Positions 14,579-33,638 of a stretch of DNA of 33,862 bases are shown here, in pieces. Source of the stretch: Thermoclostridium caenicola. Its GTDB lineage: Bacteria; Bacillota; Clostridia; DSM-8532. Position numbers and translations under genes: made by a program. The stretch is taken from positions 1-33,862 of the forward strand of contig NZ_FQZP01000026.1 in the NCBI RefSeq assembly GCF_900142095.1, in the 5' to 3' direction. Every line of letters begins with the position of its first letter. Position 1 is the stretch's first letter. The notes under the pieces were generated by a model. That model was not told the DNA's origin. It searched no databases and saw only the letters and a program-made list of their open reading frames with translations.

Positions 14579-16603
14579 TTGGAGATTATCGTTGCCAGGT
14601 ATTCCGGCTTTTGCTTCGGAGTGGACAAGGCGGTTAAGACGGCGTTCAATGTTCAGTTTGACCAGTGCGACGGAAGGGTGTTTACCCTGGGCGAGCTGAT
14701 CCACAATGCCCAGGTGATAGAAGCCCTCAATAAAAAGGGCATACAGGCAATTAACGACATTGATGAACTTAGGGAAAATGACTGCGTCATTATAAGAGCC
14801 CACGGCATCGGCAGGCATGTCTATGAGATGCTCAGGGAACGCAACGTCAGGATCATTGATGCGACATGTCCTTATGTGAAGCGCATCCACGAAATTGTCA
14901 GGGAAAAACATGACGAAGGCTATCAGATCGTCATTGTCGGAGATCCCACGCATCCTGAAGTGATAGGAATAAACGGCTGGTGTGATGGAAAAGCTTTGAT
15001 TGTATCCGATGAGAAGGAAGCAGAAGAGCTGGCCTGTTCCGACGCGCGGATGTGTGCGGTGGCTCAGACCACCTTCAGGCGATCAAAATACGATGCGATC
15101 TTTGAAACTCTTAAGAAAAAGTTTGCATTCGCATTAAAATTTGATACAATATGTAATGCGACTGTGCAGAGACAATCGGAGGCTGCAAGGCTTTCCAAGG
15201 TTGCTGATGCAATGGTTGTCATTGGTGGAAGGAACAGCTCCAACACGCAGAAGCTCTATGAAATATGTCGCCAGAATTGTCCGCAGACATATCTTATAGA
15301 AAATGCCAGCGAGCTTCCTTCATTAAAAAATATTAAAAATTTAAAGACAGTTGGGATTACCGCTGGGGCTTCAACACCTGATTGGGTAATCAAGGAGGTT
15401 ATTTTTCACATGGAAGACATGACAAAAAGGCAGGAAGGCGAGATCGATTTCAGCAAAGCCTTGGAGGAAAGCTTTACGGAGATCAAGAACAATGACATCG
15501 TGAAGGGGAAGATTATTGGATACAATACCACCGATGTATTCGTTGATCTGGGATATAAGGCTGATGGTATTATTCCGATGGATGAATTCATTGATGATCC
15601 CGATTTTGACCCGGAGAGGGATTTAAAGCCCGGCACCGAAATCGAAGCGATTGTTACCAAGCTGAACGACGGTGAAGGCAATGTGGCTCTCTCCAAGAAG
15701 AGGATGGATGCCATCCGTGGCTTTGAAGAGCTTGAAAATGCCTTTAAGAATGAACAACCTGTTGAAGCAATAGCCAAGGAAGTTGTCAAAGGCGGACTCG
15801 TTGCCGAATACAAAGGCATCAGAATCTTTATCCCGGCATCCCAGGTAAGCGACAAGTATGTCAAGGATCTGTCTCCTTACGTTGGCAAGAAGATAAAAGT
15901 CAAGATAACCGAAATGGCCAATAAACGCCGCATTGTCGGTTCCTGCCGCGTCCTCATTGAAGAGGAAAAGAACAAGAAGGCCGAGGCCTTCTGGAACGAA
16001 GTGGAAGAAGGCAAGGAGTACACCGGTACCGTCAAGAGCCTGACAAAGTTCGGCGCCTTCGTTGACTTGGGCGGCGTGGACGGCCTGATTCACATCTCCG
16101 AACTCTCCTGGAAGAAGATCGACGATCCTTCCGAGGTTCTGAAGGTTGGGGATAAGGTAACCGTCAGGGTTATCGGTGTGGACAGGGAAAAGAAGAAGAT
16201 CTCCCTGGGCTACAGGAAGGCCGAGGACAATCCCTGGTACAAGATCGAGGAGAAATACCATGTGGGCGATATCGTAACAGGTACCATCAAGCGCATGGTT
16301 CCCTTCGGAGCTTTTGTGGAGCTTGAAGAAGGCGTTGAGGGTCTTGTCCATATCTCCCAGATTTCCAACGCCCGGATTGCCAAGCCCGACGAAGTGCTTT
16401 CCGTGGGCCAGACAGTTGAGATGAAGGTCATGGAAGTCAATCCGGAAATCAAGAAGATCAGCCTCAGCATCAAGGAGGTCAAGCCCATCGATCCGGTTCG
16501 CGAGGGCGAAGAACCTGCCGAAACGGCCGAGGAGGATCTTCCCACCGAGCATACCGAGGAGATGTCCACAACCATAGGCGACCTGCTCAATGAGAAGAAA
16601 TAA
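14579..16603 (+). CDS. ispH: Fusion of IspH (HMBPP reductase) and ribosomal protein S1
   Basis: This 674-residue fusion has two parts. Residues 1-280 are IspH, the Fe-S enzyme making IPP and DMAPP at the end of the MEP pathway: cluster cysteines Cys12, Cys97 and Cys192, RAHGI (His75), and THPEV (His125, Glu127). Residues about 306-634 hold four S1 RNA-binding domains (about 306-376, 395-458, 477-547 and 562-634), the last two with FGAFV...GLVHIS-type signatures. An acidic tail ends the protein. This fusion is known in Clostridia. The start is TTG with GAGG 8 nt upstream. Confidence 0.95.
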   Translation: MEIIVARYSGFCFGVDKAVKTAFNVQFDQCDGRVFTLGELIHNAQVIEALNKKGIQAINDIDELRENDCVIIRAHGIGRHVYEMLRERNVRIIDATCPYVKRIHEIVREKHDEGYQIVIVGDPTHPEVIGINGWCDGKALIVSDEKEAEELACSDARMCAVAQTTFRRSKYDAIFETLKKKFAFALKFDTICNATVQRQSEAARLSKVADAMVVIGGRNSSNTQKLYEICRQNCPQTYLIENASELPSLKNIKNLKTVGITAGASTPDWVIKEVIFHMEDMTKRQEGEIDFSKALEESFTEIKNNDIVKGKIIGYNTTDVFVDLGYKADGIIPMDEFIDDPDFDPERDLKPGTEIEAIVTKLNDGEGNVALSKKRMDAIRGFEELENAFKNEQPVEAIAKEVVKGGLVAEYKGIRIFIPASQVSDKYVKDLSPYVGKKIKVKITEMANKRRIVGSCRVLIEEEKNKKAEAFWNEVEEGKEYTGTVKSLTKFGAFVDLGGVDGLIHISELSWKKIDDPSEVLKVGDKVTVRVIGVDREKKKISLGYRKAEDNPWYKIEEKYHVGDIVTGTIKRMVPFGAFVELEEGVEGLVHISQISNARIAKPDEVLSVGQTVEMKVMEVNPEIKKISLSIKEVKPIDPVREGEEPAETAEEDLPTEHTEEMSTTIGDLLNEKK

Positions 16604-20988: not shown

Positions 20989-22092
20989 ATGAAGCATGAA
21001 CTGACAATAGGATTGGCCGGTTTGGGGCTCATCGGCGGTTCCATCGCCCAGGCGCTGAGAAACCGAAGCGACAAATACCGCATCATTGCCTGGGACAGGG
21101 ACAGTAAGACCCTCGAAAAAGCCTTGTCCGACAGGGCTATTGATATTGCCGTCACTTCTGAATTGACGGAATTTCAGGCCTGCGACATGGTTTTCCTCTG
21201 TGTGCCGGTGTATGCCATGAAGACCGTACTGGAAATGCTTATGCCGCACCTTAGGCCTGATTGCGTGATCACCGATGTGGGCAGCACCAAGGGGGATGTG
21301 AGCCGGATCATGGCCGAAGCGGGCGTGTCGGACAAGTATATTGGAGGGCATCCGCTGGCCGGTTCGGAGAAATCCGGCTATCAGGCTGCCAAGGCCAATC
21401 TTTTTGAAAACGCCTACTATGTGATCACGGCCGACGAAAGCACACCAGAACACAGAAAACAGCTATTGAAAAGCGTTATCCGGGACTTGCGGGCCATTCC
21501 CCTCGAAATGACCCCGGAAGAGCATGATCGGGTAACAGCCGCCATCAGTCATGTACCCCATGTGGTGGCATCCCTCCTGGTTAACCTTGTGAAAAGGCTG
21601 GACGGTCCCGAAGAGTATATGAAGACCATTGCCGCCGGCGGTTTTAAGGATATCACAAGGATTGCCTCATCCTCCCCGGAACTTTGGACCGGCATCTGCC
21701 TGTCCAACAGGGAAAAGGTCCTTCAAACCCTTGCCGTGCTGGAAGAACATCTGTCCGAGTTCTGTAGCATGCTCCAGCAGGGCGACAAGGAAAAGCTTAC
21801 CGACTTTTTCAGGACTGCCCGGGTTTACCGCAATTCTTTCGCCGATATGCAGAAGAGCATCATCCAAAGGGATTTCGATATTGTGGTGGATGTGGAGGAC
21901 AAGCCTGGCATCATCGCCACCATTGCCACAGCCCTTGCGCAGAAAGGGATCAATATCAAGAACATCGGTATTGTTCACAGCCGCGAAAACGAGGAAGGCG
22001 CCCTGGAGATCCGATTCGAGGACCAGGAATCCATGAATGCAGGCATGGAAACGCTGCGCGCTCTGGGGTATGGGGTCAAGGCCAGGGTATAA
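20989..22092 (+). CDS. tyrA: Prephenate dehydrogenase with C-terminal ACT domain
   Basis: This 367-residue enzyme makes 4-hydroxyphenylpyruvate for tyrosine. It has the NAD motif GLAGLGLIGGSIAQALR, then VFLCVPVYAMK, DVGSTKGDV and the substrate region GGHPLAGSEKSGYQAA, with AISHVPHVVASLLV. Residues about 295-367 form an ACT domain (DIVVDVEDKPGIIATIATAL and on), which probably senses tyrosine. AGGTG lies 6 nt before the ATG. It is the last gene of the long plus-strand run; the DNA turns AT-rich right after it. Confidence 0.95.
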   Translation: MKHELTIGLAGLGLIGGSIAQALRNRSDKYRIIAWDRDSKTLEKALSDRAIDIAVTSELTEFQACDMVFLCVPVYAMKTVLEMLMPHLRPDCVITDVGSTKGDVSRIMAEAGVSDKYIGGHPLAGSEKSGYQAAKANLFENAYYVITADESTPEHRKQLLKSVIRDLRAIPLEMTPEEHDRVTAAISHVPHVVASLLVNLVKRLDGPEEYMKTIAAGGFKDITRIASSSPELWTGICLSNREKVLQTLAVLEEHLSEFCSMLQQGDKEKLTDFFRTARVYRNSFADMQKSIIQRDFDIVVDVEDKPGIIATIATALAQKGINIKNIGIVHSRENEEGALEIRFEDQESMNAGMETLRALGYGVKARV

Positions 22093-22204
22093 AGAATTTT
22101 ACTTGTTTTCAAGATTATCCTTTGGCTTTTCAGCTGTAGTTGTTAATTTGTGGTACTCTGAAGATCTTGGCTTCATCCAATACCAAATATATGTATCACT
22201 TGAC

Positions 22205-22591
22205 CTAACTTGGATTTTGCATGTTTTTTTCAGAAAGATTCGTAACATCATTCATAGCTGTCTCAATATTGCTATTACCATTTATTGTTTTCATAAGAGC
22301 GATATCATCTTTAAGCTCAACTAGTTCAGAATTACATATTTCGATAAGTTCTTCAATAATTTGCTTTACTTCGGGAATTTCGATATCTTGATTTTCTTCA
22401 AGAACTATTGGTTTATATAAATCATTTAAAAAAATATTATATGCTAGTTCTCTAAAGAAAGCTTTTGCATTTTTTATCTCTTTTTTCTCTTCATCAATCT
22501 CAATACGAATATCAGTCATATCAGAGTCAAGGTACTTCTTACCATTTTCAGTTAACCATCTGATCCTTATATTATCGGTTACATTAGTCAT
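22205..22591 (-). CDS. 128-aa helical partner protein of the PHP-ATPase, unknown function
   Basis: I do not recognise this protein. The first 25 residues (NIRIRWLTENGKKYLDSD) look like a small globular or winged-helix-like start. The middle and C-terminus are charged and helical, with EEKKEIKNAKAFFRELAYNI and PEVKQIIEELIEICNSELVE, suggesting coiled-coil contacts. Its ATG overlaps the end of the ATPase gene by 8 nt and GGGGAGAG lies upstream, so the two are translationally coupled and probably act together. Base use is AT-rich like its partner and unlike the flanking genes. Confidence 0.75.
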   Translation of the reverse strand: MTNVTDNIRIRWLTENGKKYLDSDMTDIRIEIDEEKKEIKNAKAFFRELAYNIFLNDLYKPIVLEENQDIEIPEVKQIIEELIEICNSELVELKDDIALMKTINGNSNIETAMNDVTNLSEKNMQNPS

Positions 22592-24980
22592 CGATAGACT
22601 CTCCCCTTTCTAAGTCCTTAATAATCGGAAGATTAAACTTGATTCCTCTTTTTTTCAAGGCAGACTGTCCTCCTTCAATTATCTTGCATACATCCTTTAT
22701 GAAATCTGTATCTTCAATTCCAGACGCAACGTAATAACATTTATCTTCTTCTTTTTTTGCAAGAATAATGTTTTCTGAATCTGCTGTAATTGAAATGTTT
22801 GCATTATGAGTAACACATATAAGCTGGGGTAAACGATTTTTAATTTTTAAAGAACGAATACGGTTTACAATTCTATTCTTTATTCCTTTGTTATCTAAAT
22901 TATCTTCTGGTTGATCCAGCACGATTATTGACGATATTCCTTTTGAGGAATATTCTTCTATTATATCAAAAATGATGTTCATAATAATGTTTGCTTTTTC
23001 GCCGGCAGATTTTTTTAATATGGATTCTCCGTTTTCGCAAATATCATAGCATACAGTTTTGAAATTATTATAATACTCTTCTGTATATTGATCTATTCTT
23101 TGCACAAAAGTCTTGTTATACGCAAATGAATCTTTTGCATTTAAAGTCCGAATTATTCCTTTAAATAAATTCCCACTTCTGTATTGCGATTTAATAATAT
23201 ACTGAATATAATCAATATAATTATTATTTACCAGATACTTTGCTATTAATTGATAGGAAAATAAATTATTTATTTGCTTTTTGCTCTTTAGTTCATTATA
23301 CTTTTCTTCTGAATATCTATTTTCAAATTCAAAAGCTTTACTTTTTAGTCCCTTGAGCAAATGTATATATGTGGTAAGATCCTCTTTAATGTCATCAAAA
23401 ACTTTTATGCTGCCGCTAATTAATGAATTGCTCCGATGAACTTCTTCATTAACATTTTTAATTTTCAGAGAAAGCTTATCAACTAGGGAATTAAACTTTT
23501 CGGATATTATCCTATAATTATTATCTTTAGTACTAATAATACCTTTGGTAGTGCTTATATTATTTACTTCTGAATCGGAATATAATGGTTTAAATAAAAC
23601 CTTTCTATGAATCTCTAATTCCAGATTATTCAGCAGTGCTTCTAGGTAAACTGGTGATTCATATATCGGTTGGAGTTCTTCAACATTAAAACTATAAGAT
23701 TTTTCATTCTTTCGATTAAGTGCATCATAATTAATAATATCAGTTATCGATGAGGTATTTTCGCAGTTTTGTTTCAAACGATTAAAGCAATCTTTAAGTT
23801 CTATTTCTTCAATTTCATTAACAGTATCCATTGATGGAAATTCTACATGAAGTTGCTTCTCTAAATAATTCTTATCCTCCTCCAATAAGACATTCTTAAA
23901 ATATATATCCTTTCGTTGGTCAAACTGTATTATTCTTATTTCGTCCTCTAGTTGACTCAAAGATTCTCTAGTTGTTCCATCCGAAAAAGTAAATGTAAAT
24001 TGCTCATATTTGTTAGCTAAATCACGGTATTGCTCTTTTATATTTTTCTTGCCATATAACAACATGTTAAGAAAAAAAGATTTTCCTGAACCAAATCCCC
24101 CGATTATGGTGTTTTGATACTCACTTAATGGTATAGTGGTTTGGTCAATAGTTACTGACTTTATATATTTATGTGCACTGGTTGAACTTCTCATTTCAAG
24201 ACCTTCTATACTTATTCTTGTATTCACATCTTGAAATGCCGTTTTAATACTGCTAAAAGGATAGTTTATGTTACCTAGAATATACATTGAAGTTTGCTTA
24301 CTTAGATCACCACTTTTACTGCGAGGATAAATATCTATATTGTGATTATCTGAAAAAACTACAATAGGAACATCATTGTATTTAAAGTTTTTAAATGCAT
24401 TTATTGCTCTAATCAAATTTTCTCTATTGTTACTATCCTCTAATGCATTAAATACTGTATAAACAAACCTATCGATCTGATCTCTTGGAGGAAGGCCTTT
24501 CTCCTTCTTATTGAAATGAGGAATCGTTATTATGTTTTGGATACCATTATCAAAAACTGCATTAAAAAATACATCTAAAGATATGGGTTGTGTATCTATA
24601 TCAATTTCATTAATATTGTTTTTATTATACATATCTATAAATATTTTAGCAATTCTATCTAAGTCGCATGTATCAAAATAAACTAACATATGAAAAACTT
24701 TATCATGAACCCTTTTGTCCTCAAAATCGACTTCAGCACCTATAACAAAGTTTATATTCTGCTTAACAAGATCTTCCCTATTACTAAGCAATTCTGAATA
24801 TAATGGGATATTTATTGTATTGTGGTCAGTGATTGAGAAAATATTAATTTGCTCTTTTACTAGGGCTGTTACAAGTTTTTCATATGTTAAATTAGACCCC
24901 TCATAATCATGCAGCTTTGTTTGATTACTTATATGACTATGAATATGTAAATCTGTTTTTAACCATTTAGAATATGCCAT
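22584..24980 (-). CDS. PHP phosphoesterase - SMC/ABC-type ATPase fusion (TrlF-like)
   Basis: This 798-residue protein has two parts. Residues 1-220 are a PHP domain with the metal ligands in place: His12 and His14 (DLHIHS), Asp52-His53 (TDHN), Glu83 (GAEVDF), His97, His155 (PHF), Asp211 and His213 (SDNH). Residues about 285-770 are a split ATPase: Walker A GGFGSGKS (294-301), a long coiled insert, a SAGEK signature (658-662), Walker B IIVLDQPEDNLD (Asp689) and a VTHN switch (about 723-726). The layout resembles proteins called TrlF-like AAA ATPases and RloC/OLD-style defence ATPases. Nuclease or phosphodiesterase action gated by ATP is inference. GGGGAGG lies 6 nt before the ATG. The gene is strongly AT-rich. 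Confidence 0.88.
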   Translation of the reverse strand: MAYSKWLKTDLHIHSHISNQTKLHDYEGSNLTYEKLVTALVKEQINIFSITDHNTINIPLYSELLSNREDLVKQNINFVIGAEVDFEDKRVHDKVFHMLVYFDTCDLDRIAKIFIDMYNKNNINEIDIDTQPISLDVFFNAVFDNGIQNIITIPHFNKKEKGLPPRDQIDRFVYTVFNALEDSNNRENLIRAINAFKNFKYNDVPIVVFSDNHNIDIYPRSKSGDLSKQTSMYILGNINYPFSSIKTAFQDVNTRISIEGLEMRSSTSAHKYIKSVTIDQTTIPLSEYQNTIIGGFGSGKSFFLNMLLYGKKNIKEQYRDLANKYEQFTFTFSDGTTRESLSQLEDEIRIIQFDQRKDIYFKNVLLEEDKNYLEKQLHVEFPSMDTVNEIEEIELKDCFNRLKQNCENTSSITDIINYDALNRKNEKSYSFNVEELQPIYESPVYLEALLNNLELEIHRKVLFKPLYSDSEVNNISTTKGIISTKDNNYRIISEKFNSLVDKLSLKIKNVNEEVHRSNSLISGSIKVFDDIKEDLTTYIHLLKGLKSKAFEFENRYSEEKYNELKSKKQINNLFSYQLIAKYLVNNNYIDYIQYIIKSQYRSGNLFKGIIRTLNAKDSFAYNKTFVQRIDQYTEEYYNNFKTVCYDICENGESILKKSAGEKANIIMNIIFDIIEEYSSKGISSIIVLDQPEDNLDNKGIKNRIVNRIRSLKIKNRLPQLICVTHNANISITADSENIILAKKEEDKCYYVASGIEDTDFIKDVCKIIEGGQSALKKRGIKFNLPIIKDLERGESIDD

Positions 24981-24997
24981 ATATACCTCCCCAGCTT

Positions 24998-25011
24998 ATT
25001 CATTAGTGAAT
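24998..25011. promoter_or_regulatory. Near-palindrome in the leader of the PHP-ATPase operon
   Basis: ATTCATTAGTGAAT: ATTCA and TGAAT pair around four central bases. It lies between the predicted promoter and the ribosome site and may be a second operator or chance. Confidence 0.4.
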
Positions 25012-25024
25012 GGTATGGCAACTA

Positions 25025-25056
25025 CAATAATATCATATTATTGCAAAATAATACAA
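25025..25056 (-). promoter_or_regulatory. Promoter of the PHP-ATPase operon with overlapping 19-bp palindrome
   Basis: On the minus strand TTGTAT (complement of 25051-25056), an 18-nt spacer and TATTAT (complement of 25027-25032) form a promoter. A perfect palindrome CAATAATAT-C-ATATTATTG (25025-25043) covers the -10 box, as expected for a repressor operator. The regulator is not encoded in the window next to it. The rest of the 24981-25256 gap is AT-rich without a credible gene. Confidence 0.55.
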
Positions 25057-25256
25057 TAGTAGACGTAATATGTGTGTCCGGTGTCGAAGAATTGAAATTA
25101 ACTTTCCTTATGATATAACTACCGCTTTTATAAATATAAGTTTTGATATTGTATTGCTATTGATGATACAAGAGTTCTGGAAGGTTAAATTAATCAAATC
25201 TAGCTTGTATTTTTATTATTATCATCTTAAAAGCACCAATAATAGCAATATTATCG

Positions 25257-26519
25257 TCATACCCTGCTTTTTGTGTTCCGGTAAAACAGGGCCGTCGCAA
25301 GCATTCCCAGCATGAGCAACGCGATACACAGCACAAAGGGAAGCGCCCTTGAGATATCGCTCAGCATCCCGCCGATATAGCCGAAGGGCACGCTCACCAG
25401 CATGACCGTAGTCTGTAACAGGGCCAGAATATTGGAGCGATCCGATGGTTCAGCGTAAATGGCCACCAGGGATTCCCTCAGCGTGCCTAGAACAGCGCCG
25501 CCAAGCGCGTCAAAGACCAGTGAAACCGACAGAAGCAAATATCCCAAAATACTGGTGCCCGGCACTGAAATCAACAGGACACAGCCGATGATACCGCTTA
25601 AGAACCCTCCATACAGCGGTCCCTTCAGGCTTGCCTGTCTGATGCGTGATATGACGGTGAAGAAAAGAATGATAGCAATGATGCTTTTGGCCATGGGGAA
25701 GATGGGCAGAAGTTCGTCCGGAACGCCGATTCGGCGGGATACGATGATCTGCCAGAAAGTGCTTCCCAGCATGGCGACGATCTCCACCAGGATGCTGATG
25801 ACGATGGCAAATATGGTGCCTTTTGATGTCCTTATCTTCCGTGCTGCGTCCTTGTACCCTGAAAGCAGTTCGCCCAATGATTTGCCACGGGTCGCCTCCT
25901 GCCTGACCCTGCCAACGGCTGTCTCGGTTGAAAACTTGTACAGGAGGAGCAGCTTCAGTGTCATGACAATGAAAGCGTTGATATACAGGATGCGTATGGC
26001 CGGCACCAGCGTCAGCTTCGCCACCAGGACAGATGAGATGGGGGCAAACAGGGCGGAGAGGTTTCCGGCAAGTATCACCAGCGAATAGATCCGTGTGATC
26101 TTGTCCTTGGGCGCATCCTCAATCAGCAGGCAGTCCCAGGATACCGTGGGTACTTTCATCATGCCGTTCAGCAGCGCGGCAACGACAAAGAACCAGAACC
26201 CCTGGCTGAATGCCCAGATAAGGCAGGGAAGGCTCCAGGACAAAAAGTCAAAGATGGCCGTGCTCTTCCTGCGCCCCAGCTTATCGACGATAGCGCCGGA
26301 GAGAAACGCGAAGATGGTCTGTGAAAACATATAGACCGATGCCACAATACCCACCTGCGAGTCGCTCATGCCAAATGTCAGCATGTATACCGACGCATAG
26401 GGCAGGCACAGGTTCATGGAAAGTCCCCAAAGGGGTTCGGTATAGACGCAGGCGCGGGGATTACCCCGCAGCTCAACCAGGGTGCGGATCAACTGGTGTT
26501 TCATCAATCTGTTTCTCAT
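25257..26519 (-). CDS. MFS transporter
   Basis: This 420-residue protein has about twelve membrane helices in two halves split by a basic loop near residue 200-225. The loop between helices 2 and 3 has FLSGAIVDKLGRRKSTAIFD, matching the MFS signature GxxxDRxGRR-type turn. The substrate is unknown; the neighbouring beta-glucan genes suggest a sugar, but drug-efflux types also look like this. The start MRNRLMKHQL has GAGAGGA about 8 nt upstream; an in-frame ATG at 26573 is less likely. The GH16 terminator lies just upstream, so it is probably a separate unit. Confidence 0.9.
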   Translation of the reverse strand: MRNRLMKHQLIRTLVELRGNPRACVYTEPLWGLSMNLCLPYASVYMLTFGMSDSQVGIVASVYMFSQTIFAFLSGAIVDKLGRRKSTAIFDFLSWSLPCLIWAFSQGFWFFVVAALLNGMMKVPTVSWDCLLIEDAPKDKITRIYSLVILAGNLSALFAPISSVLVAKLTLVPAIRILYINAFIVMTLKLLLLYKFSTETAVGRVRQEATRGKSLGELLSGYKDAARKIRTSKGTIFAIVISILVEIVAMLGSTFWQIIVSRRIGVPDELLPIFPMAKSIIAIILFFTVISRIRQASLKGPLYGGFLSGIIGCVLLISVPGTSILGYLLLSVSLVFDALGGAVLGTLRESLVAIYAEPSDRSNILALLQTTVMLVSVPFGYIGGMLSDISRALPFVLCIALLMLGMLATALFYRNTKSRV

Positions 26520-26603
26520 GGGATGTTTCCTCTCTGGATACTGGTCAAGAAATACCTCTATTCTACCATACATTCAGGTGATTCGCCAGGAAGATGCGGA
26601 AGG

Positions 26604-30246: not shown

Positions 30247-31352
30247 TCATGCCAGGGCGAAGATGACAAGCAGCAGAATAAGTACCAGCACCGCAAGGAA
30301 CGTAGCCAGGAAAATGAGGGTGGTGTTGTTGCCATCGCCTGTGATATTGACAGGTCCGTTAGGTACATTGGGATCATCGATGATCGTTATGGTGTTCGTT
30401 GCAGGGTCGGGAATATCTCCCACCAAGTTCGACTCCACGATGTCAATATCGAAACCGGAAGCACCGAGGGCCTGCACGGACGGTCCGGCCGGAGAAGCCG
30501 AATTGGTGATATTGGAGTGAATGATATTAATATCTCTTGTACTCTTAAAACAACAGCGCCATCTGTTGCAGAGTTGGTATTCAGCACGCTGTTGTTGATG
30601 GTGACAGTACCGGTGCTGGGAGCGCCTGCAGACTGTCCGCTGCGCACTGCATAGCTCTGTACGTCAAATTTACAGCTGTCCACGATCAAATCAGCCGTTC
30701 CATAGTAGTTTATCCCGCCTTCTGTAACTTCACTGACAATGCAGTTCTGGACAAAGACATAACCCGAAATGGCATTCAGCTGCCCTAGGCTGTGCAAGTC
30801 GTTCGCGTTGGAGTTCATGATGGCGATGTTCCTTGCACCTGCGCCGGTCGCAACCCTAACGGCTACCTGGGCAACACCACCACTAGGCTCGCCTTTAAAG
30901 GTGCAGCCGTTGATGGTGACATTATGCGCATAGTTAAACCCAACGCCAGGATTGGGAATAAGAATACTGTTTTCTACCGTTGTTCCGGTCAAATCAAAAT
31001 GAAGACCTTGGATCAACAGGGTTTCCGGGCTGTTAATGTCTCCTCTTCCGTCAATATTGATGGTGTTTTTAACGGTGACAGTTGCCCCGGGCTGCGGGCG
31101 TATCACCACATTCTTGTTTGCCTGTTGTTCAATATTGATTTCATCAGTGAGTGTTCCGGCCGCAATTTCAATGACGAAATCGGTTCCCGGATTTGCCGTT
31201 ACCGCATCCACCGCCGCCTGCACCGAGGGATAGGTGACAGGGGGGCCTCCGTCAATGGAGAGTGTGGCTTCCGGCGAATCTGCAAAGGCTACAACCGGAA
31301 GAAAACATAAGCCTATGACCATTAAGGCCAGATAAATGATTTTATGTCTCAT
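30247..31352 (-). pseudogene. Frameshifted beta-helix surface protein
   Basis: The first 270 or so residues have a signal peptide (MRHKIIYLALMVIGLCFLPV, cleaved near AFA-DS) and a right-handed beta-helix pattern typical of pectate-lyase-like or surface proteins (VQAAVDAVTANPG, NVVIRPQPGATVTV, NVTINGCTFKG). Near 30525-30540 the reading frame is lost; the -1 frame continues sensibly with DINIIHSNITNSASPAG, GDIPDPATNTITI and a C-terminal membrane helix (FLATFLAVLVLILLLVIFAL). Joined, it is a membrane-anchored beta-helix protein of about 368 residues. GGAGG lies 5 nt before the ATG. Sequencing error, decay or phase variation could explain it. Confidence 0.75.
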
Positions 31353-31522
31353 GATACCTCCAGTATGATAATTAGTTTGTCCTAATACGGTATATGCGAG
31401 TAACCCCCAACTTGTCCGTCCTGCGATTTGGTTTTTGACAGTTTCATCATCTCGCGTAAACCTCTGAAGACAAGGGAAACAGTGTTATCATAGTTGCTGG
31501 CCAAATGTGATTTTGCAAAATA

Positions 31523-31708
31523 ATGCAGGATAAAGATATGGGGGATAAGGATTGTTTTGCAGGAACCGCATTAATAAAATTTTGGGAATCAGAAACCAAG
31601 ATCGCAATCCTATGTCCTAATTGCAAAAAAAGAAGTAACATCACCGAGAAGCAGATAAAATATGATGAATACACCTGCACCCATTGTGGGTTTACAGATA
31701 AGACGTAA
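31523..31708 (+). CDS. Small zinc-ribbon protein (61 aa)
   Basis: The C-terminal half has two zinc knuckles, CPNCKKR (about residues 31-37) and CTHCGF (about 52-57), 17 residues apart: a zinc-ribbon able to bind one Zn2+. The first half (DKDCFAGTALIKFWESETKI) is not recognisable. No good ribosome site precedes the ATG; a later ATG (31538) is possible. The intact CxxC pairs argue for a true gene rather than chance. A role in nucleic acid or protein binding is only general to the fold. Confidence 0.5.
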   Translation: MQDKDMGDKDCFAGTALIKFWESETKIAILCPNCKKRSNITEKQIKYDEYTCTHCGFTDKT

Positions 31709-31829
31709 AAGTATTCACGCAGGCGGCTTTCAACCGTTCTGTCTGGTTTGATCCACCAGTGAAATGTTTCTATTTTTTGAATGAAGCTCTGATTGCAGAT
31801 TAACGCCTGTATTTCTCAACTCAATAATT

Positions 31830-31991
31830 ATGGTAAAATGGTGTGAGTCATTTTGCTTTGTACTTGCTGGTGCCATCGGTACGAAACTCAACAATCCTGT
31901 AAAGTTAATCAAAGGGATAGTTTATGTAATTGGCGGCTGTGTATTATACTTTGCATATTCATATATCAGCAAGAAAATAGAGAAAAAGTAG
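31830..31991 (+). CDS. Possible 53-aa membrane peptide
   Basis: The reading frame begins MVKWCESFCFVLAGAIGTKL, continues with a hydrophobic stretch (about 28-46) and ends KKIEKK. Two hydrophobic parts with a basic end fit a small membrane protein, or the tail of a decayed larger one. No ribosome site is seen and I do not recognise it, so it may not be expressed. Confidence 0.3.
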   Translation: MVKWCESFCFVLAGAIGTKLNNPVKLIKGIVYVIGGCVLYFAYSYISKKIEKK

Positions 31992-32044
31992 TAGCGCATA
32001 TCTTTTGCCTGGAATGACAGATGACCAGGTGTTAAAAAAGAGCA

Positions 32045-32082
32045 AGCAAAAAGCCTTACAGCACATCTGCTGCAAGGCTTTT
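32045..32082 (-). terminator. Terminator of the tRNA-Ala transcript
   Basis: On the minus strand AAAAGCCTTGCAGCA pairs with TGCTGTAAGGCTTTTT (arms at 32068-32082 and 32048-32063) with a four-base loop and a closing T-run. It begins 10 nt after the tRNA CCA end. Confidence 0.9.
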
Positions 32083-32091
32083 CCCAACGCT

Positions 32092-32169
<78 letters not shown>

Positions 32170-32180
32170 ATCAGCTATCT

Positions 32181-32197
32181 GAGCCGTTTCGCGGCTC
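32181..32197 (-). other. Hairpin in the tRNA 5' leader
   Basis: GAGCCG (32181-32186) pairs with CGGCTC (32192-32197), just upstream of the tRNA in the precursor. It may aid 5' processing or be incidental. Confidence 0.4.
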
Positions 32198-32208
32198 GAG
32201 CATTACCT

Positions 32209-32237
32209 ATTATAACACCAACTTCGCGGGTAGGCAA
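32209..32237 (-). promoter_or_regulatory. Promoter of tRNA-Ala
   Basis: On the minus strand TTGCCT (complement of 32232-32237), 17 nt and a perfect TATAAT (complement of 32209-32214). The rest of the 32168-32468 gap holds the leader hairpin and the terminator of the next gene; I see no coding sequence there. Confidence 0.8.
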
Positions 32238-32346
32238 TAGACAATTTCGGAAATTTTTTATGTTAATAATAGGAATACGTTCAATAAAAAAGTCGCAATC
32301 GGTAAAGATGGGCGTTTTGACATGATGATGCCGGAGCGGGTTTGCA

Positions 32347-32420
32347 GCAAAAAGGCTGTTTCAAGGGTATATTTCCTGATGCCTGGGGCTCAGGCTGAAC
32401 CGCCTCAAAACAGCCTTAAA
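32347..32420 (-). terminator. Terminator of the alcohol dehydrogenase gene
   Basis: On the minus strand AAGGCTGTTT (complement of 32408-32417) pairs with AAACAGCCTT (complement of 32352-32361), followed by TTTTT. A smaller stem GCCT/AGGC lies in the large loop. Confidence 0.75.
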
Positions 32421-32468
32421 TTTATACCATAAGCATGGGCATGATTTTTATTTTTTCAAAGGCCAGCG

Positions 32469-33638
32469 TTATTTTGCAAGGGTCAGGATATCGTAAACCG
32501 CCTTCTTGTTCAGCTTCACAAACGATCCCACGGTGTAGGTGTCCGAACCGGTGCATTTGTCGGCCATTTCTTCAAGCCTGCTGTCGTCGATGCCGGCCTC
32601 CCTGAGCGAGACGGGCAGCCCGATAGAGGAGAAGAACTCCTTGAGCTTCTGGATGCCTTTCAACGCGGTTTCCTCAGGGTTGAAGAAGTTGTAGTCCACA
32701 TCCCAGACCCTTGATGCAAACTGGGCAAAACGCGCCACATCATTTTTATATACATACTGCATCCAGGCAGGGAAAACTATCGCCAGGCCTGCACCATGGG
32801 CAATGTCATAAATGCCGCTGATTTCGTGTTCGATGGCATGGGATGCCCAGTCTTCCTCTCTGCCGGTTCCCAAAAGGTTATTGTGGGCAACCGTGCCGGT
32901 CCACATGATCTCGGCACGCACTGCGTAATCCGTAGGATTGACCAAAGCCTTCGGTACATTGTTGATGAGGGTCTTCATGGTGGCCTCACACAGCCTGTCG
33001 GTGAGTTCCACGTCCTTTGTATTGGTGAAATACCTTTCCATGATATGGGCCATGATATCGGCAGCGCCACAGGCGGTCTGGTAATTGGGGAGCGTATAGG
33101 TGAACTCCGGATTCAGGATGGCGAACCTGGGGAAGATGTGGTCGGTGGTAAGTCCCCTCTTGTACCACCCATCTTCATTGGTGATAACCGAGCTTGGGCT
33201 GGATTCGCTGCCTGCCGCAGGAATGGTGAGAACCACGCCCACCCCCAAGGCTTCCTTCACCTGGGCCTTCCCAATATAGAAATCCCAGACATCGCCTTCA
33301 TAGGGTACGCCCACGGCTATGGCCTTGGCTGAGTCGATAACGCTTCCGCCACCAACGGCAAGGATAAACTTAATGCCTTCTTTACGGCACAATTCAATGC
33401 CCTGATGGACGAGGGACAGCCTGGGATTGGGCTGGACCCCGGCCAGTTCCACAAATTCAACACCGGCTTCTTTCAAGGATTTCACAACTGTATCATAAAG
33501 CCCGCTTTTCTTGATGCTTCCGCTGCCATAATGCAACAGAACCTTGTCGGCGTGTTTCTTTGTCTCGGCGCCGACCTGCGTTTCTGTTCCCTTACCGAAT
33601 ATGATTTTCGTCGGGTTTTGGAATACAAAGTTTTCCAA
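32469..33638 (-). CDS. Iron-containing alcohol dehydrogenase (butanol dehydrogenase type)
   Basis: This 389-residue enzyme of the Fe-ADH family reduces aldehydes to alcohols with NAD(P)H. It has the cofactor motif AVGGGSVIDSAKAIA (about 94-108), the metal ligands Asp194 and His198 (GAADIMAHIMERYF), and His267 and His281 (WASHAIEHEISGIYDIAHGAG). The length and the HAIEHEISG pattern fit the BdhA/YugJ group. The start is TTG with AAGGAGG 8 nt upstream, and MENFVFQNPTKIIFGKG is the family N-terminus. It ends at its own terminator. Confidence 0.95.
   Translation of the reverse strand: MENFVFQNPTKIIFGKGTETQVGAETKKHADKVLLHYGSGSIKKSGLYDTVVKSLKEAGVEFVELAGVQPNPRLSLVHQGIELCRKEGIKFILAVGGGSVIDSAKAIAVGVPYEGDVWDFYIGKAQVKEALGVGVVLTIPAAGSESSPSSVITNEDGWYKRGLTTDHIFPRFAILNPEFTYTLPNYQTACGAADIMAHIMERYFTNTKDVELTDRLCEATMKTLINNVPKALVNPTDYAVRAEIMWTGTVAHNNLLGTGREEDWASHAIEHEISGIYDIAHGAGLAIVFPAWMQYVYKNDVARFAQFASRVWDVDYNFFNPEETALKGIQKLKEFFSSIGLPVSLREAGIDDSRLEEMADKCTGSDTYTVGSFVKLNKKAVYDILTLAK

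Follow-up and report, generated by a model that had tools for sequence, protein, structure and literature searches.

What is a pair of overlapping genes in AT-rich DNA doing among the housekeeping genes of Thermoclostridium caenicola? The window, by which we mean the whole stretch of 33,862 nucleotides that was analysed, contains such a pair. The reading that we favour, and consider rather probable, is that the pair is a horizontally acquired two-gene module directed against phages (or against mobile elements), consisting of an ATP-gated PHP nuclease and a small subunit. The features of the locus are as follows.

22083 to 25280, no strand: accessory insertion of about 3.2 kb between the convergent genes for prephenate dehydrogenase and an MFS transporter
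22584 to 24980, minus strand: PHP-SMC ATPase gene, an open reading frame of 798 aa assigned to the TrlF/Ppl superfamily by NCBIfam, with a structure model of pLDDT 71.5
22205 to 22591, minus strand: partner gene, an open reading frame of 128 aa that overlaps the ATPase stop by 8 nt and has homologues in the same position in L094, L188 and L189
22599 to 22607, minus strand: Shine-Dalgarno-like AGGGGAGAG, within the ATPase gene and 7 nt ahead of the partner's ATG

An earlier note on this DNA had reported reading frames of 798 and 128 residues with an 8-nt overlap, and both lie where it had placed them; the shared nucleotides are ATGACTAA. At the local base composition, the chance of an open stretch is about 5e-6 for 128 codons and about 1e-33 for 798 codons, and the codon-position GC bias follows an identical pattern in the two frames. 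Given these improbable open stretches, the common GC pattern and the Shine-Dalgarno-like AGGGGAGAG, both are real genes. They are probably translated in a coupled manner.

The block that carries them is foreign to its surroundings. Its GC content is 28–34% (about 29% overall), compared to about 50–55% (about 52%) in the flanks, which are formed by prephenate dehydrogenase on the left (20989–22092, plus strand) and the MFS transporter on the right (25257–26573, minus strand). In four of four congeners (G001–G004) the flanking genes are directly adjacent, with a spacing of 63–133 bp that represents the empty site. Hence, the AT-rich block is an insertion. Homology to the congeners breaks off at 22043–22083 and picks up again at 25276–25281; the insert sits between convergent genes and leaves both flanking reading frames open. 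The locus is a foreign insert that was acquired horizontally. The empty site in all four congeners bears out the earlier description of the pair as an accessory module, and the pair is not a set of core genes present in all relatives. Among 98 relatives there is no full-length ATPase (the few hits comprise just C-terminal fragments from distant members of the superfamily), and there is likewise none among 391 genomes sampled from the class. A transposase, an integrase or clear terminal repeats were not found in the insert. A retron-like element is not supported, because no Rfam RNA family is found within the insert.

Two other places in the window deserve mention. At 14579–16603 a 674-aa protein fuses a LytB/IspH domain to several S1 RNA-binding domains. 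A second GC dip, to about 40–42%, spans 31000–32500; it contains a tRNA-Ala(GGC) at 32092–32167 and no open reading frame of 100 aa between 31353 and 32468.

The domain layout of the large protein gives the first indication of what the insert might do.

24201 to 24980, minus strand: PHP metal-dependent phosphoesterase domain, residues 1–260, with nine ligands and a fold match to 2anu
23946 to 24170, minus strand: N-terminal half of an SMC/Rad50-type ATPase head with Walker A (GGFGSGKS, 294–301), about residues 271–345, with a fold match to 5h68
23031 to 23945, minus strand: predicted long-helix or coiled-coil insert of low confidence, about residues 346–650, with pLDDT mostly 35–75
22608 to 23030, minus strand: C-terminal half of the ATPase head, with SAGEK (658–662), DQPEDNLDN containing the Walker B Asp689 and Gln690, and the THN switch His725

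All nine PHP metal ligands (His12, His14, Asp52, His53, Glu83, His97, His155, Asp211 and His213) are present, and they are invariant in the four closest clade members. The ABC motifs are complete as well: Walker A, the signature at 658–662, Walker B Asp689 and the switch His725. The earlier note had every one of its PHP, Walker A, SAGEK and Asp689 positions right, and its picture of a PHP domain fused to a split SMC ATPase agrees with both the motifs and the domain folds, which are of the SMC/Rad50 type. The AlphaFold model (53-sequence alignment; mean pLDDT 71.5, with higher values in the PHP and head regions) has an N-terminal PHP domain followed by a split SMC head whose halves are parted by long helices. 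Its PHP part superimposes on TM0559 (2anu) with Z 15.4 and an rmsd of 3.0 over 192 residues, and Foldseek matches the same part to 3o0f, 2anu and RNase AM (9etk) with E of about 1e-8 (about 2e-8 for RNase AM). The head matches SMC 5h68 with Z 16.4 and an rmsd of 3.2 over 221 residues, and SMC/Rad50 heads overall with Z 15–17. Profile comparison leads from the PHP part to EndoQ and RNase AM and from the head to Rad50, SMC and PARIS AriA. A Toprim domain has no Pfam match in the ATPase, and in the structure model the chain ends soon after the head.

One could argue from the folds, which resemble those of Rad50/SMC heads and of PHP nucleases (EndoQ included, by profile), that the protein is a DNA-repair nuclease of the Mre11-Rad50/SbcCD kind, which is accessory by chance and plays no role in defence. 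We regard this as very improbable. The ATPase is rare, patchily distributed and missing from congeners, the insert is AT-rich, and relatives are found in prophage-type contigs and restriction clusters.

Family profiles lead back to the class of defence-related enzymes. The best-scoring NCBIfam family is TrlF (NF045780; 194.9 bits, below the cut-off of 350), followed by Spaf_1101 (NF045781; 102.7 bits, below 475) and Ppl (NF042955; 60.4 bits, below 1000). PADLOC also returns Ppl (56.3 bits), and Pfam PHP scores 23.7 bits, slightly below its cut-off of 26.4. The ten clade relatives tested reach 150–306 bits with TrlF, every one of them under the 350 cut-off. Judged by these sequence scores, the ATPase is a member of the TrlF/Spaf_1101/Ppl superfamily in the broad sense and falls outside every curated family. 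It does not match a known metabolic family. The kinship with RloC, OLD and Gabija that had been suggested earlier gives way to TrlF, Spaf_1101 and Ppl as the closest relatives.

How similar is the window protein to these and other known systems? With TrlF it shares the layout of PHP domain and SMC-type ATPase, the DQPED Walker B, the THN motif and an accessory existence on mobile elements, but its score lies under the 350-bit cut-off and its chain is shorter. TrlF-like matches occur in 725 plasmid records and are widespread on plasmids and prophages. Ppl, whose curated name records an anti-phage function, also combines a PHP domain with an SMC-type ATPase; here, however, the best-matching stretch of the window ATPase is restricted to the C-terminal head half (685–778). 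Ppl is described as a single protein. The match to Spaf_1101 spans nearly the entire chain (15–782). Mre11-Rad50 and SMC proteins resemble the window protein in linking a nuclease to a coiled-coil ABC head, but the window nuclease domain is PHP instead of calcineurin-like, is located on the ATPase chain, and is joined to a head with Gln at the position of the catalytic Glu. PARIS AriA, the retron-Eco8 OLD protein, Gabija GajA and RloC are likewise defence ATPases with Rad50-like heads, and AriA and retron-Eco8 are among the sequence or fold matches of the window ATPase. The effectors of these four systems are Toprim or anticodon-nuclease domains, whereas the effector candidate in the window is a PHP domain.

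The glutamine is a feature of the whole superfamily. In an alignment with Rad50, Gln690 takes the position of the Rad50 catalytic Glu (Walker B reads DQPE), and D689, Q690, P691 and E692 are invariant in 53 superfamily rows. That glutamate serves ABC enzymes as the catalytic base, and replacing it by Gln gives a slow, ATP-locked enzyme. The superfamily-wide Gln (window 22887–22925, residues 686–698; alignment A6) resembles a natural "EQ" ATPase. Since Gln690 stands in for the catalytic Glu, the head is probably a switch and not a motor. Some superfamily members do not have the canonical PHP ligands; hence, catalysis by the PHP site cannot be assumed for every one of them.

Relatives of the ATPase were found only by alignment and profile searches; single-sequence scans of the viral and genome collections found none. 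A genome scan with a TrlF-type alignment yielded a close full-length relative in an Erysipelotrichaceae MAG (L094; 35% identity over residues 3–790), and profile searches added L188 and L189 as well as the more distant L195, L196 and L197. In all six loci the ATPase is followed by an overlapping gene of 81–120 aa. When viral sequences were scanned with the close-clade alignments A2 and A4, no relatives appeared, and the six viral contigs that matched in a motif pattern scan do not encode one. The window ATPase falls in a clade with 12 members, which come from Bacillota, Actinomycetota and viral contigs; in a careful tree they are set apart by a branch whose support is 100/99, and rows linked to TrlG lie elsewhere.

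Does the small gene belong to the ATPase? In a uniform survey of 126 superfamily proteins, a small downstream gene (70–140 aa, starting within −20 to +10 nt, limits of size and distance that were fixed after the first cases had been seen) follows 11 of 11 ATPases in the window's clade compared to 3 of 115 outside it. The clade was gathered by ATPase similarity, disregarding the partner. A 12th member found later (L259) has a small overlapping gene too, so that the pairing stands at 12/12, with partners of 81–132 aa that overlap or abut the ATPase gene. Members with a small partner also have shorter ATPases (median 818 aa compared to 932 aa in the others). The co-occurrence of partner and ATPase proposed in the earlier note is thus true for the window's own clade and does not extend to the wider superfamily. 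Because the partner is missing beside most superfamily members, it marks one clade only.

Three observations on other loci came out of the same searches. First, the viral-contig PHP-ATPase of L259 contains an in-frame TAG just past the THRP motif (L259:9167–9169), due to decay, sequencing error or recoding. Second, L049, L059, L062, L080, L083, L088, L091 and about a dozen similar viral-contig loci encode shorter SMC-like ATPases of about 475–725 aa in which the PHP motif was not found. Each is followed, at −26 to +21 nt, by a gene of unknown kind of 362–384 aa, and the two are possibly another two-gene module. Third, superfamily ATPases in L126, L136, L144, L146 and L147 precede a gene of about 420 aa that looks AlbA_2-like by eye; these ATPases occupy a different branch from the TrlG-linked rows.

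The small partner itself is difficult to place. The window partner has no significant match in Pfam, NCBIfam, PADLOC or PHROGs, and none of the partners of the ten relatives tested reaches a family cut-off (in searches other than PADLOC, with the L047 and L107 partners left out of PHROGs). Among the partners of the window, L094, L188 and L189, pairwise BLAST gives E 0.001 and one hhalign comparison E 8e-5, at collinear positions. An hmmsearch with the other three retrieves the window partner at E 0.022 among 13,690 reading frames, where an unrelated frame of L100 scores higher. Partner homology therefore appears detectable within this group of four only, and is not strong there. A common origin across subclades could not be demonstrated, as profile scores are at or near those of column-shuffled controls, a few borderline cases aside. 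Hence, the small genes may have more than one origin. By eye, and as an impression only, the partners have in common a beta-hairpin at the N-terminus and a long helix at the C-terminus. The low-confidence model of the window partner (two-sequence alignment, mean pLDDT 60) suggests an alpha/beta protein instead of the helical one that had been described earlier, with strands at 8–15, 18–23, 30–33 and 38–40, a helix at 42–55, a strand at 61–63 and a long helix from 73. Its best Foldseek match has an E of only 0.1 and, the model being of low confidence, we claim no fold. The partner also matches a serine recombinase in L009 (E 9e-5), but this match was discarded, since it falls in the C-terminal region of a long protein that is unrelated.

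What could such a partner do? Its sequence identity is 19–26%, compared to 31–34% for the ATPase. Rapid divergence of the small member of two overlapping genes would suit a toxin-antitoxin-like growth-arrest module, in which a toxic PHP-ATPase nuclease is neutralised by a small antitoxin and phage defence is a by-product. Two distant partners also score weakly as VapB-antitoxin-like (E 0.0016 and 0.01, far under the cut-off). Furthermore, the TRL operon of Photorhabdus, after which TrlF is named, arrests growth at 36 C, and the arrest is relieved by mutation of trlG or by deletion of the whole operon; mutations in trlF itself were not found in that study (PMC7554251). The TRL case shows that growth can be restricted by an operon with a superfamily gene in it. 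The window pair differs from the TRL operon: trlG (SLFN_AlbA_2/HATPase_c_4) is absent next to the window ATPase, and in its place the clade has the partner of 81–132 aa, which in the window has no Pfam match above cut-off. Against a toxin-antitoxin module, the large gene comes first and the small one second, the opposite of most type II pairs, and the partner does not match a DNA-binding domain. Superfamily members without any partner are common; hence, the ATPase class is not inherently toxic. We consider a toxin-antitoxin module, which overlaps with our main reading, to be unlikely.

Alternatively, the partner could be an activating sensor or adaptor that recognises a phage trigger or loads DNA, with both genes required for activity. 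The constant pairing within the clade, the shorter ATPases of the paired members and the quick divergence of the partner, as expected from contact with a varying target, are all in line with this idea. The same observations fit an inhibitor equally well, and we give the sensor a lesser, though real, chance. An inhibitor or antitoxin and an activating sensor differ in the role of the partner only.

Under our preferred reading of an anti-phage module, we infer nuclease activity, a trigger, switch behaviour, a direction of control by the partner and an outcome for the cell as follows. The large protein joins a PHP phosphoesterase to a head of the SMC/Rad50 type whose coiled coil is shortened, and in its layout would be a single-chain counterpart of Mre11-Rad50. 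The heads would engage, driven by ATP, in response to a signal from the invader (a structure in phage DNA or a protein of the phage), and the PHP site would thereby be permitted to cut nucleic acid. Gln690 would make the head a slow switch instead of a motor. The small protein, made by coupled translation right after the ATPase, would bind it as a dedicated subunit and most likely keep it inactive until the trigger arrives.

The superfamily, including the anti-phage Ppl, is already known; what is new is a clade outside the curated families that is defined by an unrecognised small partner. Searches of the open literature turned up no PHP-SMC two-gene system, although this is weak evidence because most subscription journals were outside the scope of the search, which also found no published mechanism for TrlF-like proteins. 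It is conceivable, if somewhat short of an even chance, that the clade represents undescribed defence systems of two genes. In these, an enzyme made of a PHP nuclease and an SMC switch would have as its permanent partner a small alpha/beta subunit that diverges rapidly and serves as trigger sensor or inhibitor, and the PHP nuclease would be controlled in an unreported way through a natural "EQ" ATPase. A dedicated partner of this kind offers a handle on how TrlF-like enzymes stay silent and get triggered. A two-gene operon is also easily cloned and mutated, which makes the effector role of the PHP domain and its gating testable.

The neighbourhoods of the relatives link the pair to defence. 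Beside the window copy no defence gene was recognised, and the profiled neighbours there are housekeeping genes. In contrast, all eight relatives with profiled neighbours (L094, L188, L189, L195, L024, L039, L047 and L107; L196, L197 and L259 were left out) adjoin restriction or other defence genes, a raw count and not a measured enrichment. For the check on neighbouring defence genes that the earlier note had proposed, the pattern is consistent around the relatives and is missing at the window copy. Because relatives adjoin known anti-phage genes, the pair probably represents a two-gene variant of the TrlF/Ppl class that is little known.

The neighbours are diverse. L094 comes after a GmrSD-HNH gene. 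L188 is surrounded by HEPN_AbiU2, a Schlafen-type helicase, an AspBHI/Mrr modification-dependent endonuclease and KAP NTPases, one of which is split into two reading frames of 124 and 261 aa (L188:10214–11450) and is probably a broken gene. L189 lies with HerA and DUF4297, a PD-T7-5-like gene, two ThsB-like TIR genes and an Mrr-type nuclease; L195 is upstream of HsdR-like and Mrr genes, and L039 upstream of an Alw26I-type endonuclease and methylases. L024 is on a phage-type contig with a Mu F-like gene and is preceded by a ResIII protein, and L047 is near MmeI. Relatives at a greater distance, on plasmids, are found within type I and III restriction operons or next to them. Finally, L107 has an SLFN_AlbA_2 protein nearby. 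A TrlG-like gene with SLFN_AlbA_2 and HATPase_c_4 domains (L107:9951–11336) lies some 1.1 kb downstream from the small-partner type pair of this locus. The small and the TrlG-like kinds of partner may occur together in this one locus.
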